From NCBI GenBank assembly GCA_025201365.1, contig JAIXMF010000001.1, forward strand, positions 1,674,001-1,738,000: a stretch of DNA of 64,000 nucleotides. Reading direction: 5' to 3'. A program made the position numbers and the translations under genes. The notes beneath the pieces were generated by a model. It searched no databases. It saw nothing but the letters and a program-made list of their open reading frames with translations, and had not been told where the DNA came from. Below, piece by piece: positions 1,663-49,688 of this stretch (position 1 is its first letter; each line of letters begins with the position of its first letter). The DNA comes from Syncephalis plumigaleata (taxonomy: Eukaryota; Zoopagomycota; Zoopagomycetes; Zoopagales; Piptocephalidaceae).

Positions 1663-1866
1663 CTAACGATCGACTTGCGCAGTTTTCGCGACAGTCTCGG
1701 AATTGGTATTGGCTTGACTCTCTTCGCTAGGATTGGGATTGGGATTAGGTGAACGACGTGCGACAACAGCACGACGCATCCTATTGGGCTTGGCTTCGAC
1801 GACGACGACCATGTTGGCGACAGCGACAACGGCGACGGCAATAGCGATAATGGCAGAGAACTTCAT
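1663..1866 (-). CDS. Small secreted protein sharing its signal peptide with the microexon gene at 33 kb
   Basis: The frame encodes 67 residues. The N-terminus MKFSAIIAIAVAVVA is a clear signal peptide, ending near VEA, followed by basic pairs (MRR, ARR) that could be processing sites and by a Pro/Asn-rich tail (PNPNPNP). The first 45 nt of the coding sequence differ from the + strand exon at 33181 by one base, and the 20-25 nt before the ATG are also alike. The ORF closes with TAG, yet the same frame stays open for another 31 codons to a TGA at about 1572-1574, so the true end may lie further on. The 3' end of the locus (970-891) again matches the 33 kb gene. No known family recognised. Expression and exact exon structure are uncertain. 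Confidence 0.6.
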   Translation of the reverse strand: MKFSAIIAIAVAVVAVANMVVVVEAKPNRMRRAVVARRSPNPNPNPSEESQANTNSETVAKTAQVDR

Positions 1867-19735: not shown

Positions 19736-20340
19736 TTAGTTGCATGTGCCAGCCCATTGACCTGTTGGGATGTTGCATGTTAGACCAGGGGCACACTTTG
19801 TAACTGATTATTGCACGTGCCGCCTTGTTGCGAAATCCTAAGACAGATCCTCTGAGTTTGACCGGGCATCGTATCGCAAGTGAGTCCGGAGTTGGGTACG
19901 CATACGAAGTTGGTGCCGCCGATGATACCACACGGATTGGCAAGGCCCACGGTCACGGGTGGTGGCGTGGGCGGTGGTGAAGTACCCGATATACAGGTGC
20001 CCGCCCATTGACCAAACGGAATATTGCATGATAGACCGGTGGCACACTTTGTAAATTGATTATTACACGGACCACCTAATGGTGAAGTTGTCACGCAAAT
20101 CCTCTGAGTTTGACCAGGCATCGTATCGCAAGTGAGTCCGGAGTTGGGCACGCAACGAAGTTGATACCGCCGATCAGACCACACGGATTGGCAAGGCCCA
20201 CGGTCACGGTTGGTGGGGTGTTGCGGGTGGTGGTGTTGGTGTGGTGCGGCAGGGTTATCCTGAGGTATGGCTTCAACCAACAATGCACTGCCCAATACCA
20301 AAAGTAAGCTGATCTTGAGAAGAATAGTAAGGCGTGCCAT
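19736..20340 (-). CDS. Secreted cysteine-rich two-repeat protein, unknown function
   Basis: Starts MARLTILLKISLLLVLGSALLVEA, a signal peptide, then a His/Pro linker and two tandem copies of a module of about 70 residues: a CVPNSGLTCDTMPGQTQRIC half, then a GGPCNNQF..CATGLSCNIPFGQWAGTC half, joined by a Pro/Thr linker. Each module has about eight Cys, suggesting disulfide-stabilised folds; spacing resembles many fungal surface or secreted Cys-rich proteins, but I recognise no named family. The two copies are about 80% alike at DNA level. The frames of the copies do not match: copy 1 lacks one base near 20157 relative to copy 2, and copy 2 lacks one near 19801, where the open frame stops at 19780. 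Read in the continuing frame, copy 2 ends at TAA 19736-19738. Error or real decay cannot be told apart here. Confidence 0.6.
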
Positions 20341-32410: not shown

Positions 32411-33180
32411 GTTGACAAGTAATAGGTTGGCTATTAAAGCAAAGCGGGAAAGCGCGGGAAATAGAAGAGAGGAAGAATAATGGGGAGGAGAGATACGTGT
32501 GGTATACGTCAGATACGCGCTAATTATAGATACCCCACAGGAAGCATACAATTTAATAATTAATCTCACGCTCATATTGTTATAACCAGAGTATTCATTA
32601 CTATAGATCGATTAGATGATTTGTATTGACTATCATGTCTATGTTTGATGGATCATTACATCAATGATAATGGAATGGAATGATTATGTTATTGTCGTCA
32701 TCGTACTATGAATTGATTTACATTCATATACGTGGTGTTCAGTACAATCATTTCAATAGAATATAATCAGCCATGGTGGCTGTAACAAGTGTACGCGTCA
32801 TCATTGATGGAGTATTCCGAAATGATGATGATGTGTGGATTCAGACAATTGACAGAGCATGCGGTTACACGACATGACAGACATTCACCATTCATTAATC
32901 TAATTGGTACTAATTGCTCGGTGTACTCTCTACATGCAATGGATTGACAATGCAGCTATACCAATATCCACCATCATCCTCATCATTTCGGCTATAAATC
33001 GAGCACTTTTGACACAGTCAACTTGCCATCTTCATACTCACTCTTCTACTTTATTCTACTCTACTACTATTACTACTCGTATATACACTGCTTATATTCT
33101 CGTTCTATTCTACTCTCACTACTATCTACTCTCGTTCTAGTCAACTTATCTGTCTATCCACTCCACCAGGCCACATCAAC
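32411..33180. promoter_or_regulatory. Divergent promoter region of HIBADH and the microexon gene
   Basis: About 770 bp. The part next to 33180 is pyrimidine-rich (CTACTTTATTCTACTCTACTACTATT-like run at 33045-33080, interrupted), and the final 25 nt before the ATG (CCACCAGGCCACATCAAC) match the leader of the paralogue at 1867-1890. An AAATCGAG/TATAAAT element near 32993-33001 could act as a core promoter. No separate gene seen. Confidence 0.4.
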
Positions 33181-36100
33181 ATGAAGTTCTCTGCCGTTAT
33201 CGCTATTGCCGTCGCCGTTGTCGCTCTCACCAGTCTGGTCGCCGTTGAAGCAGCACCTGCCTTGGTCCGTCGTGGTATGTCTGGCCATGACCCTATCAAT
33301 TGATGTACTAATCGTAGCCTATTGTTTCATTGCCTACCGATGATTACCGATAGCTCGTAAGTTCATGTATATAAATGATTGATTTGACATGCTAATCACA
33401 CTGTAATGTTTATTCTACCTGTTGATTTGTTAATAATAGTTAGTAGGTTATACCATTGACTACAACAAGGGCTATGCTAATCAAACTATAATGTTTATTT
33501 TATCTATTACTTTGTTAGAACCAGGTAATTGACTGGATTATTAACCATAACAAGCACTATGCTAACTGTAATACAAATCAATATCATACGTGATTACTAT
33601 TTGAAGAGGATGTAAGCTATCGTTTTGATCGTTTTTTTCTTTTAATGCTGCCGTAGCTTCTTTTATTATAATGCTATCATTCTGATTGTAATGAACGGAA
33701 TACTAACCACAATCTGTAACATAATTCATATACTCGTCTATCACAGTGCGTAGGTTATCACTATGATGGCAATAAATGATGTACTAACTATAGTATGACT
33801 CATGGTTTACGTATGCTCTCGTATAATAGAAAGTAAGTTATTATTCTGACTGTAACGTATGAGATACTGACTATAATATGACACATGATTCCTGTATGAT
33901 AGAAAGTAAGTCATTATTCTGACTGTAATAAATGGATACTAATCACTATGTGGCATACGATCCACGTATGTTTCTGTATACCAGCCTGTAAGTTACTATT
34001 CTGACCGTAATGAATAAGTGTACTAATCACAATTTGACAAATGGTTCACTTACGTTCTTGTATGACAGGAGGTAGGTTATCAGTCTGATTGCAATAAATG
34101 ACGTACTAATCACGCTATGACGCATGATCCACGTATGTCCATGTATGATAGACCGTAAGTCATTACTCTAGCCGTAATGAATGCTGTACTAATTATAACG
34201 TGTCACACAATTAATACATGTCTGTGTATGCTAGTGGGCAAGTTAACATTATGACCGTAATAAATGGGGTACTAATTTTAAATGATACATAATCACATAT
34301 ATTTTTGGATAATAGGAGGTGAGTTACCGTTCTGACTACAGCGTATGCGATATTAACCACACTATGGCGTATGATCCACATATGTTCGTGTATGGCAGCC
34401 TGTAGGTTATCACTCTGGTTGTAATGAACGAGATACTAACTACGGTATGACCCATAATCAATACGTGTTTTCGTATTACAGCGAGTAAGTCATCGTTCTG
34501 GTCGCAATGAATGAGGTACTAATCGCGCTATGGCACACGGTCCACATATGTTCTTGTATGATAGGCCGTAAGTCATCATCCTGACCGTAATGAACGAGAT
34601 ACTGATTGCAATATGATGTATGATCCACGTATGTTTTCGTATAATAGAAGGTATGCTATCATTTCTTATCGTAATAAACGAGATACTAATCATAATCTAA
34701 CACACGATCCACATACGTTCTTGTATGATAGGCCGTAAGTAATCATTCCGACTACAATGTATCGATGTACTAATAATTATGATATGGCACGCGATTCATA
34801 CGTATATCCGGTATGACAGTGTGTAAGTTATCATTCCATTATAAACTATGGTATACTAATTATGATGTGACATACGATCCATACGTATATCTGCCTATAA
34901 CAGTGTGTAGGTTGTCATTATGATCGTAATGAATGGGTGTACTAACTATGATATCGCACATGATCCACTTATTTATGTATGATAGTATGTAAGTAATCAT
35001 TTTGGCGTAACAAATGAGGTACTAATAACAATGTGGCTCATTATCCATGTCTGCTCCTGTATGATAGTGGGTAAGTTATTATTTTGCCTGTAATGAATGG
35101 ATGTGCTAATCACGCTATGGTACACGCTCACATATGTTCCTGCGTGATAGGTTGTAAGTTATCATTACAATTGCAATAAATGACGTACTAATTATGCTAT
35201 GACGCATGATCCACGTATGTTCATGTATGATAGGAAGTAAGTCATTACTCTAGCCGTAATGAATGAGGCACTAACTATAACGTGCCAACAATCTACGTAT
35301 GCTTGCGTATAATAGAAAGTAAGTAATCATTCTGATTGCAATGAATAATGCACTAACTACAGTATGACATACATTACTATGTCTGCTATGCTAGAAGTAA
35401 GTTATTATTTTAATTATAATGAATGAGGTACTAATTGTAATATGACACGCGATCCACGTATGTTTTTGTATAAACAGGGCGTAAGTCATCATTTCTGATT
35501 GCAACGTATGAGGCACTAACCACATTATGGCACATAATTCACGTATGCTCCTGTATAATAGGGCGTAAGTAATCATTCTGACTGCAATGCATGGATGTAC
35601 TAATTATTATGTGGCAAATGATCCACGTATGTTTTGTATGATAGGCTGTAAGTAATCATTCCGACCGTAATGAATAAATGTGCTAACTATGCTATGCACA
35701 TGATTCCCTATATGGTAGACCGTATGTTACCATTCTGGCTGTAATTTATGAAGTACTAATGATAGCATGCACGTGATTTTCTTATGTTCCCGTATAATAG
35801 CAAGTAAGTTAACATTACGGTCGTAATATATGGCGAATTAACCACAGTATCGGCACACAATCCACATATGTTCCTGTATGATAGCATGTAAGTCAATATT
35901 TCCGATCATAATATACAATCTACTAATAATAATATGGCACATTATTTCTATACATTTGTGGATAACAGTGCGTAAGTTACTATTCCCGATGATAACGTAT
36001 GGATGTACTGATATTAATACGGCATATGATTCACCTGTGTTCTCGTACGATAGAGAGTAAGTGAATATCGCTGACTGCAATGAATGGATGAGTACTAACT

Positions 36101-36300
36101 ACAGTATGGCGCACAATCTATACGCTCCTGTATAATAGAGAGTAAGTAAACATTTCAACCGTCATCTATGTGACACTAATCACACTATAATCTACATCAT
36201 CTGGACGATAGCAATAAGCAGTAAGTAATAATCCACGAGTAATCATACCCATACTAATCCATTATGATTACAGAACAAGACAAGGACATCATCAAGTAGA
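33181..36300 (+). CDS. Secreted peptide gene built almost wholly of single-codon microexons
   Basis: Exon 1 (33181-33274) encodes a signal peptide, MKFSAVIAIAVAVVALTSLVAVEA, here cut for length after VVAL, followed by APALVRR with a dibasic (Kex2-type) site. Then come 36 consecutive introns (53-135 nt, most 70-85) flanking 35 microexons, 31 of exactly 3 nt. All but one donor are GT; the donor at 34238 is GC. Almost every intron has a TACTAAC-, GCTAAT- or close variant branch motif. Introns 1-4 are phase 1; a 5-nt exon (33607-33611) resets the frame and introns 5-34 are phase 0. Counting the 2-nt exon at 35395 as a codon, the chain reads without a stop to CAA-TAA in the 9-nt exon at 36212. Predicted precursor 68 residues; mature part 37 residues with C-x12-CC-x12-C (Cys codons at 33747, 34820, 34904, 35969). 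Function unknown. The 3' exon (from 36274) and true stop are uncertain. Splicing is predicted only. Confidence 0.72.
33525..33746 (+). other. Array boundary: intron 4, 5-nt exon and the long 135-nt intron 5
   Basis: Intron 5 (33612-33746) is a fusion: its first ~60 nt are unlike the array, while its last ~75 nt match the array consensus. The unlike part (about 33636-33672) matches the minus strand of the paralogue at about 1418-1382 in 33 of 37 positions, marking the join between ancestral sequence and array. The exon before it can be 5 nt (AGGAT, using the first AG) or 3 nt (GAT); only the 5-nt form brings the signal peptide and the microexon codons into one open frame. Confidence 0.65.
33672..36211 (+). 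repeat. Tandem array of about 31 related ~80-nt introns separated by 3-nt exons (period ~83 nt)
   Basis: Units share a pattern: GTAAGTYATCATTCTGA, GTAATGAATG, TACTAAC/T, a CACTATGRCACATGAT block, CCACGTATGTTCCTGT and ATGATAG. Microexons lie at 33354-56, 33440-42, 33519-24, 33607-11, 33747-49, 33830-32, 33903-05, 33985-87, 34069-71, 34152-54, 34235-37, 34316-18, 34399-401, 34482-84, 34565-67, 34648-50, 34732-34, 34820-22, 34904-06, 34986-88, 35068-70, 35151-53, 35234-36, 35316-18, 35395-96, 35478-80, 35562-64, 35645-47, 35719-21, 35801-03, 35885-87, 35969-71, 36054-56, 36139-41 and 36212-20. The first three or four introns (33275-33608) form a different, smaller family. Unit lengths vary by only a few bases. 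Acceptor, microexon and next donor keep fixed spacing (AG, three variable bases, GTAAGT), which a plain minisatellite would not need. Confidence 0.9.
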
Positions 36301-36427
36301 TATTATAGGTAATCAAGTCAAGAATGATTGGTGCAAGACCTCTTAGTGTCCATACATTCAAGCATTATTCCTTGGACCAACAAGTATATCTACAAGATCA
36401 TTCAATCATTTATTGAATAAATATGTC
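36274..36427 (+). other. Probable 3' exon / 3' UTR of the microexon gene
   Basis: Starts after the ATTACAG acceptor at 36273 and runs through a TTGAATAAAT polyadenylation-like motif at about 36412-36421. The last 85 nt are the copy shared with 978-891. If the last acceptor of the preceding exon is moved to the second AG (exon reduced to CA at 36219-36220), translation could continue into this exon to a TAG at 36340s, so an alternative C-terminus is possible. Confidence 0.45.
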
Positions 36428-36525
36428 CTATTCTGACCATTATAACATTTCCTAATGTTCTTGTGGCCAATTGTATCAGGCAACAAAACATCACCATATC
36501 TGTATAACCTATTATTTGGTAATAT

Positions 36526-48482: not shown

Positions 48483-49688
48483 ATGGCCGCATCACCTATT
48501 CTTTCAGCATCACCCAATATGACACCAACATTGCCTACGGTATCCGCACCTGTACAGAGTGGCGATCAGCCATTTCCAAATCGTTTAACTTTGGAGTTAC
48601 GCGGTGAACGCGTGCAAATTGCACGAGACACGCTGGTCAATCTACCCGAATCCGTCCTTGTGGTTATGTTCCCGAACGGGCTTATTCTAGGTCCACGCGG
48701 CTCACTCTACGTAGCTGACGATGGTAATCCTTCAGTTAGCGGATCCATGGACGGCAATGGCCTGTCGGATGATGACGATGAAGACGGTATCGTACAAGTG
48801 GACTTTGATCCCAATCTACTACGATATATTTTGAAATTTTACGAAACACCCGCCGTTCCGAGTGATTCCGACAATCCTGTGCAGGGTGCAGCCGATGCAG
48901 CAAATGGTGCATTAACCGGATTGAGCGGTAACAACAACATCGCCAACAACAACACCACGCCAGCACCCGCATCCACCGCGACTGGTATGTATCCCTTCAA
49001 CCAGTCATTCCCTGAACGACGTGCCTTTATTGTATTACGCGAAGAGCTGGACTACTTCGCCATCCGATCCACACCGGCTGGGGTCAACGCTATCACCGGT
49101 GATAACGACACAGACACCTCTGGTCCGCAATCAGTCAAACACTTGTGCGGCCAGTATCTAGTGGAGCAGTCACGAGTATTTGACGCGCTTCGACACGGAC
49201 GCAGACGAACTATCGACGATGCAACGCAATCCGCTGCCTCCGCCGCAGCATCCCCTAACGGCAACGAGGCAGCGGTGGACTCGGCCAATGTAGCGGTCTC
49301 CACACTCGAGGAGGCTAGTGCCGCGGAACGTCAACTCGTCGACATGCTTTGTCTAGCGGGATTCGGCGTCGAGGACACGTGGGGCTATCGTGCACGCGAG
49401 CCAGGACGTTGCTGCGTAGTAAGCGTCAGTATGGTGCGTTTAGTTACCGATGGCACACCTGCTCAAATGGCTGCAGCACACAAACTATTAGTATTTTGGA
49501 GAAAGCCCGCGGTAAGTAGTAAACAATTATATAGTAATAGGCATATGTACTTATTATTGTTATTATTATTATTAATTTAGCGTAAATGTTGGTGGGATGG
49601 TTCAGCCACAACTGTCGGTCCTGATGGTTCCATCCCAGTACGCATTTGGTCTCGACGAACCTGGACACTTGAGCTGGCCTTGATCTAA
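48483..49688 (+). CDS. BTB/POZ-fold protein of the Whi2 type
   Basis: Two exons, 48483-49511 and 49581-49688, predict 378 residues. A BTB/T1-like domain opens with LTLELRGERVQIARDTLVNLPESVLVVMFPNG and continues with VQVDFDPNLLRYILKFYE and RRAFIVLREELDYFAI, the order seen in fungal Whi2 proteins. The C-terminal domain begins near ERQLVDMLCLAGFG and ends KLLVFWRKPARKCWWDG..IWSRRTWTLELALI, with the RKCWWD block at the exon junction confirming the splice. Yeast Whi2 works with the Psr phosphatases in stress response and in nutrient-dependent restraint of TORC1. Acidic and Ala/Asn-rich linkers interrupt the domain. GC content and codon use are higher in GC than the flanks. The frame is intact. Confidence 0.8.

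Follow-up and report, generated by a model that had tools for sequence, protein, structure and literature searches.

Runs of single-codon exons in a predicted family of secreted-peptide genes of the fungus Syncephalis plumigaleata

Introduction

Can a gene spell out a peptide at one codon per exon? The question is raised by a locus on the plus strand of a 64,000-nucleotide (nt) stretch of the Syncephalis plumigaleata genome (contig JAIXMF010000001.1, positions 1,674,001 to 1,738,000; G000:C1:1674001-1738000), which we call the window. S. plumigaleata is a mycoparasite of the order Zoopagales. The original prediction, made from the window's letters, placed here, from position 33181 onward, a gene whose signal-peptide exon is followed by a long series of exons of one codon each. 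We conclude that this gene is very probably a member of a large S. plumigaleata family of secreted peptides, in which the mature peptide is encoded at one codon per exon. Genome-wide counts refer to the 32.6-Mb assembly of 383 contigs.

Results

An exact recount of the window gene gave exon 1, 35 internal exons, a 3′ exon and 36 introns, and 31 of the 35 internal exons are exactly 3 nt long; the 36 introns and 31 three-base exons originally counted are thus the same. In order, the internal exons measure 3, 3, 6 and 5 nt, then twenty times 3 nt, then 2 nt, then nine times 3 nt and finally 9 nt. The unbroken run of three-base units that had been described does not exist, since the 6-, 5- and 2-nt exons interrupt it and the longest run is of 20 exons. 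Introns range from 53 to 135 nt, most being 76–85 nt. All features of the gene lie on the plus strand, with a possible TATA box (TATAAAT, 32993..32999) read from the sequence ahead of it. Exon 1 (33181..33274, 94 nt) encodes MKFSAVIAIAVAVVALTSLVAVEAAPALVRR plus 1 nt, which by eye, rather than by a predictor, we judge to be a secretion leader ending in an RR (Kex2-like) site. The leader microexons CTC, TTA, AACCAG and AGGAT follow, with their introns, at 33354..33611, and the last of these, the 5-nt exon AGGAT, moves the frame from phase 1 to phase 0 (94+3+3+6+5=111). We had also tried reading the triplets in phase 1 straight from exon 1, and this reading meets a TGA across CCT and GAG; the 6- and 5-nt exons restore phase 0.

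Twenty consecutive 3-nt exons (33747..35318), separated by introns of 70–85 nt, read TGC AAA AAA CCT GAG ACC TGG GAG CCT CGA GCC AAG GCC TGT TGT TAT TGG GTT GAA AAA. A 2-nt exon AA (35395..35396), which shifts the frame if it is included, and nine more 3-nt exons, GGC GGC GCT ACC CAA CAT TGC AGA AGA (35478..36141), lead to the 9-nt stop exon CAATAAGCA (CAA TAA GCA, 36212..36220), where the TAA is in frame 0 when the 2-nt exon is left uncounted. The last intron (36221..36273, 53 nt) begins 3 nt past the stop codon, and the parsed paralogues have the same layout. Its end, misplaced in the original prediction, was set at 36273 (ACAG) from intron-free paralogues. The 3′ untranslated exon (36274..36440, end approximate) carries a poly(A) signal, AATAAA, at 36416-36421, and in many paralogues, by eye, homology fades about 20–30 nt past AATAAA. 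Within the array, 28 of the 30 distances of 0–10 nt from [CT]AG to GTRRGT on the plus strand are exactly 3, against 1 of 15 in the rest of the window (60.2 kb, plus strand).

We parsed this gene together with the 20 paralogous loci that best match window positions 32980-33480. A trained Viterbi parser scored donor, branch site, acceptor and intron length and was flat in exon length up to 39 nt; it was used because a hard branch-site threshold had produced spurious exons of 20–30 nt. Its intron range of 45–124 nt causes it to misread the window's 135-nt intron. Exon 1 occurs in all 21 genes, with an altered length in L033 (92 nt), L039 (85 nt) and L040 (91 nt). The 441 internal exons comprise 382 of 3 nt, 23 of 9, 13 of 5, six of 6, six of 2 (the window's AA is one of these), five of 12, three of 15 and one each of 8, 30 and 36 nt, where at most 4 of the 382 triplets are really the ends of 5-nt exons: AGGAT or AGGAA was parsed as GAT or GAA in L032, L034, L035 and L025, and the 5-nt exon was missed in the window gene. 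Ten or more 3-nt exons are present in 18 of the 21 genes. As parsed, the longest unbroken 3-nt runs number 31 (L030), 30 (L035) and 29 (L034), the last two each being one too long, as the end of a 5-nt exon was counted. Similar 5-nt (or 2-nt) adapter exons recur among the paralogues, and the usual phase sum is 94+3+9+5 = 111, or 94+3+3+6+5.

The introns are of the ordinary type, with a GTAAGT donor, a TACTAAY-like branch site, a YAG acceptor and a length of about 80 nt (mean 79.5 nt over 462 introns). GTAAGT is the donor of 365 of the 462, and the commonest branch site, GTACTAAT, occurs in 140. In the one ordinary gene compared, a neighbouring 3-hydroxyisobutyrate dehydrogenase-like gene, there is a 78-nt GTAAGT..TTAG intron without a plain TACTAAC.

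Several lines of evidence indicate that the triplets are codons. Divided by three, the internal exon lengths leave remainders of 0, 1 and 2 in 421, 0 and 20 cases, while the intron lengths are spread evenly (163, 154 and 145). Not one of the 382 triplets is a stop codon, where intron triplets would predict 29.5 stops and the base composition of the triplets themselves 11.1; the naive probabilities, 4.7e-14 and 1.3e-5, are overstated since the paralogues are related. Joined end to end, the triplets have no stop in frame 0, 3 in frame 1 and 36 in frame 2. As parsed, the frame that begins in the leader stays open as far as the stop exon's TAA in 12 of the 21 genes, and as far as a TGA inside that exon in L021. 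An exon ending in TAAGC(R) is present in the 21 genes, and TAAGCRGTAAGT (TAAGCR-GTAAGT) occurs at 123 places genome-wide against 39 for the reversed control. Information content at the three triplet positions (0.06, 0.08 and 0.18 bits) is near the bottom of the range over 43 columns, whereas the flanking AG is invariant and GTA.G nearly so, with AG and GTAAG mostly at 1.6–2 bits. Variable triplets between conserved flanks point to a variable codon between conserved splice sites.

Comparison of paralogues leads in the same direction. The codons align as C K. D E ... C C ... C R Y, and in close paralogues the cysteine codons are retained, with synonymous exchanges of TGT/TGC, CCC/CCT, GGC/GGA and AGA/CGT. 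Between L032 and L034, 18 codon pairs are the same, 5 synonymous and 7 not. This comparison aligns genes of unequal unit number, and as misregistration inflates the pairs with the window gene, only close pairs were used. After the common RR-ended leader, the predicted products are, for example, ALTPKDCKPDETFYDGYGGGHCCKQDGNDIVCRYQ for L034, DLPACEWDYNGYCCHSTPGGGFSCWDPRD for L038 and AQDPPALKAKAKAKLQQG for L022.

These observations also bear on whether the array is a minisatellite within one long intron, in which case exon 1 would be joined directly to the 3′ exon and the AG-NNN-GT motifs would be decoys. The units are homologous and repeat in tandem about every 83 bp (Tandem Repeats Finder reports an 83-bp array at the window gene, with 65% matches), and splice-like sites could be copied along with them without having any function. 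However, the triplets are the least conserved positions and yet never stops, the frame, the stop exon and the synonymous cysteine codons require that the codons be in messenger RNA (mRNA), and the deposited protein discussed below speaks against it as well. We consider this explanation extremely improbable, and reject it on the evidence of the frame, the stop and the paralogues. From the same patterns we infer that the 3-nt exons are included in mRNA.

The deposited protein P0066 (BDF22DRAFT_685685) offers a view of how such exons might be joined. On its own contig (C362), exon 1 matches residues 1-33 at 97%. The next match on that strand, to residues 69-92 (88%), lies 3.9 kb off, and none was reported in the interval. 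Within the initial 1.4 kb of this interval are the exons GTC, CTCAAGAAC, CACCC, TGC, CCT, CCT, ATC, CAT, TGG, AAA, GAT, GGA, AAA, ACT, TAT and GAG. Residues 30-45 of P0066, RRGPPPPIHWKDKTYE, equal exon 1 plus 13 of those exons with their order kept (GTC + CACCC + CCT CCT ATC CAT TGG AAA GAT AAA ACT TAT GAG), that is, twelve 3-nt exons and one 5-nt exon joined. When all subsets of the 16 exons were tried, only this one, or the same one minus its last exon, gave the P0066 residues.

The arrangement is widespread in the genome. We counted GTAAGT N(60-90) AG N(k) GTAAGT on both strands and found 123 matches for k=2, 1932 for k=3, 38 for k=4 and 116 for k=6, against 62, 126, 224 and 57 for the reversed-pattern controls, so that only k=3 far exceeds its control. 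Many of the k=2 matches listed are the AG within the stop exon NNNTAAGCA. Counting donors other than GTAAGT, the real number of such 3-nt exons should be higher. Exon 1 matches at about 145 genomic places, intron-free and decayed copies included; this figure derives from a P0066 search in which 150 of 169 candidates were scored and 148 matched at E ≤ 0.001, one or more of these being a C-terminal piece and not exon 1.

Outside the assembly, family proteins are deposited for S. plumigaleata, which is the only named source among the database matches; the others are unnamed or metagenome proteins. Of 35 matches, 29 come from jgi or ena metagenome sources and bear the leader. Twelve of these 29 end in (R/L)RG-(T/M)-S-x-(H/Y)-x-x-(I/V), which is the leader read into intron 1, and others of the 29 continue into a peptide. 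Because those twelve end as a leader read into intron 1 would, the intron-bearing form probably exists in relatives too. Pfam at its cut-off gave no family for two predicted peptides, P0066 and P0084.

Some genomic places match the leader, the mature part and the 3′ untranslated region without gaps, and we read 23 of them (L044-L058, L061-L068). About half have open frames of leader, RR, peptide and stop. In at least 11 of the 23, CGTCGTG is joined directly to CTC. The last join, TAAGCR to RRCAAGACRAGGACATC, is found at 37 genomic places with two or fewer mismatches, 17 of them exact, and at none in the reversed control; 15 of the 37 are intron-free copies that we read, carrying the join of TAAGCR to RRCAAGACRAGG within 2 mismatches, and the other 22 are known from the pattern match alone. 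A good intron-free open reading frame (ORF), APEPLYPKGKLRGWGFW after the leader, occurs in four near-identical copies, and the intron-free P0084 has 86 residues with the TAA of TAAGCA in frame. Genomic DNA thus contains the two outermost joins, first and last, that we predict for the intron-bearing genes, and leader, short peptide and this 3′ end together are a gene form of this genome. P0072, considered as a model of a micro-exon gene, turned out to be intron-free. A second family member in the window, on the minus strand at 1663..1866, is also intron-free, with a 67-residue ORF, MKFSAIIAIAVAVVAVANMVVVVEAKPNRMRRAVVARRSPNPNPNPSEESQANTNSETVAKTAQVDR. Genes of the P0084 type are found paired in opposite orientation at G000:C223:541773-549439 and C55:5016-12618.

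Several findings weigh against a family expressed in this way. In 9 of the 21 parsed genes the frame to TAA is not open: 2-nt exons break the frame in the window copy, L026 and L028, exon 1 is altered in L033 and L040, L025 has an early stop, L021 ends at its TGA, and L023 and L037 parse badly (the exons of L023 were guessed for translation). P0066 omits CTCAAGAAC (9 nt), TGC and GGA, all of which are in frame, and its C-terminal end, a match of only 88%, apparently continues into the last intron; the protein may be the output of an ab initio gene finder and not be based on transcripts. Many intron-free copies are frame-shifted or have lost their start codon: the ATG is lost in L061, L067 and L068, stops occur in L050 and L065, L047 is shifted, and L055, L057 and L062 are in a different frame at the TAA and continue beyond it. 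The exact last join is absent from L045, L046, L048, L049, L051, L054 and L056. When the codon runs of intron-free and intron-bearing copies were compared, no match extended beyond the first ~26 nt, and a search with the L034 peptide returned no intron-free match, an empty result that proves little. The interior joins are consequently without a matching fossil complementary DNA.

On balance, the frame, the stop codon, the synonymous changes, the paralogues, the intron-free copies and the deposited protein uphold the prediction of a gene with single-codon exons after a signal-peptide exon. Whether this particular copy is functional is a separate matter. The AA at 35395-35396 shifts the frame past the TAA, and other decayed copies exist in the genome; the family could be spliced as described while the window copy is a pseudogene or contains a base error. 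Conversely, all 31 of its triplets are sense codons with usable splice sites, its stop exon is intact, and either a homopolymer error or skipping of the 2-nt exon leaves the frame open to the TAA. We take a defective or misread copy to be a substantial possibility, though one that falls somewhat short of even chances. Since the 2-nt exon breaks the frame unless it is skipped, the window copy may be decayed or misread.

Skipping may not be confined to that exon. If single-codon exons were often skipped, each gene would yield a mixture of peptides differing by one or a few residues. Skipping of any 3-nt exon preserves the frame, and the TGC, GGA and 9-nt exons omitted from P0066 have donors other than GTAAGT (GTAGGT, GTGAGT and GTAAGC). 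On the other hand, these omissions may be errors of the gene model, and conservation of the cysteine codons suggests that their exons, at least, are important. Frequent skipping is conceivable, and we lean, without much conviction, against it.

Two views of how the genes arose can be set against the relationships among their introns. Introns within a gene are homologous, and the similarity of those 1–3 units apart, 0.39–0.40, barely exceeds the 0.37–0.39 of distant ones. One view is that the intron-free copies are older and that introns were inserted later between codons. L045, L046 and L058 share about 340–510 bp upstream with intron-bearing genes (pieces of 400–500 bp were compared), which is unlike plain retroposed copies, and no poly(A) tail, a sign of retrocopies, was seen in the intron-free 3′ ends examined. 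Six other intron-free copies have only about 75–245 bp upstream in common with intron-bearing genes. Yet adjacent introns are homologous and tandem, so that duplication of a unit of intron plus codon is simpler, as in the alternation of AAG and GCC in L022, and the nearest introns of the same gene share codons in 46 of 381 cases, where 23 would be expected. We think it unlikely that the intron-free copies came first.

The other view makes the unit itself the object of change. In four of five close pairs of paralogues, triplets differ more often than introns (8.8% versus 2.2%, 20% versus 12%, 32% versus 18% and 34% versus 16%; Fisher p of 0.011, 0.034, 0.0009 and 0.00004, in pairs that share members), although misalignment of units may inflate the excess; in the fifth, 0 of 45 triplets differ against 1.7% for introns. 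We tentatively propose, with less than even confidence, that a phase-0 intron of about 80 nt and its codon act as an exchangeable cassette. Duplication, deletion or conversion between homologous introns would drive the exchange, single residues would be gained, lost or swapped with the frame kept, and optional skipping would multiply the peptides. As each unit is one codon plus one phase-0 intron, units could be gained or lost without a break in the frame. If this is true, the introns are machinery that diversifies an arsenal of secreted peptides.

Single-codon exons are also seen in other genes, which adds to the case for our reading. L059 (at about 280-900) has a different leader, four 3-nt exons and a clean stop, and translates to a product ending in TSSSCTRRRCYDD, with CTRRRCYDD as the end of the peptide. 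Its introns are hardly alike, with pair scores of 0.04–0.28, compared with 0.00 for shuffled sequence and about 0.37–0.40 for introns of the array. L060 and G000:C1:1411159-1416851 hold another array, in which exons of 3 nt occur together with exons of 9 nt or longer, and stretches similar to the L060 array, with TTGGAGGCTGAGAAGC, occur elsewhere in the genome. Two similar arrays (G000:C58:10437-12755 and C223:612325-614641) have six bases from AG to GTAAGT and acceptors like CTATAG. As for other features of the window, the minus strand has at 19746-20340 a cysteine-rich ORF that looks secreted, contains an internal repeat of 251 bp (84% matches) and has no Pfam family, and the product of an ORF at 48483-49580 shares 80% identity with a protein of Syncephalis fuscata.

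Discussion

The sequences show a common gene plan. Exon 1 carries a hydrophobic leader ending in RR, and small exons, one usually of 5 nt, shift the frame from phase 1 to phase 0. Next come AG-NNN-GT units in varying number, in each of which one codon accompanies an intron of about 80 nt; an exon ending TAA-GCR closes the frame, and a short last intron and a 3′ untranslated exon complete the gene. On the reading that we prefer, the units encode the mature peptide, and each intron would be removed by intron definition, as it holds nearly all that the spliceosome needs internally (its own strong donor, branch site and AG), with little demanded of the exon. A gap of 3 nt would scarcely accommodate two neighbouring spliceosomes, so the introns are probably removed one after another, perhaps from 5′ to 3′, an order that would always leave a long upstream exon. 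The resulting mRNA of about 0.5 kb would encode a pre-pro-peptide that is secreted and cut after RR to release a peptide of about 13–55 residues, in one subfamily with the cysteine pattern C..CC..C. The product would have an extracellular role, the simplest target being the host fungus, and attack on, or communication with, that host is the likely use of the peptides.

A 3-nt exon hardly offers room for two spliceosomes at once, so runs of single-codon exons would make it possible to test intron definition and the order of splicing directly. In addition, introns could let a peptide evolve residue by residue. A further suggestion from this family is that annotations of such fungi lack many secreted peptides. 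Among the matches listed, the open-licence literature gave no account of single-codon exon runs or of this peptide family, and one paper naming S. plumigaleata uses its genome for binning in the portion of the text available. Runs of 20–31 consecutive 3-nt exons, together with about 1900 units in one genome that have a perfect GTAAGT on either side, would be by far the most extreme exon–intron structure known to us.

Very small exons have been described singly. Single-nucleotide exons are known from Arabidopsis APC11 and Fusarium CYP621A, where, according to the accessible parts of these reports, exons of less than 6 nt can be constitutive, and the authors of the APC11 study prefer intron definition, with introns removed one after another (PMC4674806, PMC12940212). 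Those are cases of one tiny exon in an otherwise normal gene, whereas the Syncephalis family has runs. Introner elements, like the introns here, are many similar introns in one genome; they insert copies into many genes, as set out in the available portion of PMC9860276. Among the matches listed, the similar introns of Syncephalis differ from introners in standing side by side inside a single gene family, with one codon to each; those of L059 are dissimilar.

Parallels in gene structure come from worms and aphids. Aphid bicycle genes have longer exons and proteins than the Syncephalis family, and we know of no sequence relation between the two. As in Syncephalis, they form a large family of putative effectors with many micro-exons (PMC9168663, in the part available). 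We found many micro-exons in a large, putatively effector-like family here as well, in a fungus rather than an insect. Schistosome micro-exon genes (MEGs) likewise encode secreted parasite proteins on many small exons, mostly multiples of three, and are hard for automatic annotation; according to the accessible text, their exons are 6–81 bp (3–81 in the abstract), mostly 15, and their introns 0.1–5 kb (PMC10526429). A leader exon, judged by eye, followed by exons divisible by three is also what we found (421 of 441 internal exons). However, the Syncephalis genes lack the ~15-bp exons and 0.1–5 kb introns: 382 of the 441 exons are 3 nt, and the introns average 79.5 nt and are mutually homologous, in a fungus. 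Pfam and protein-database searches gave no sequence relation to MEGs, with no direct comparison to MEG sequences made. In its gene structure, then, this family would be a parallel in a parasite of fungi to the micro-exon effector genes of worms and aphids.

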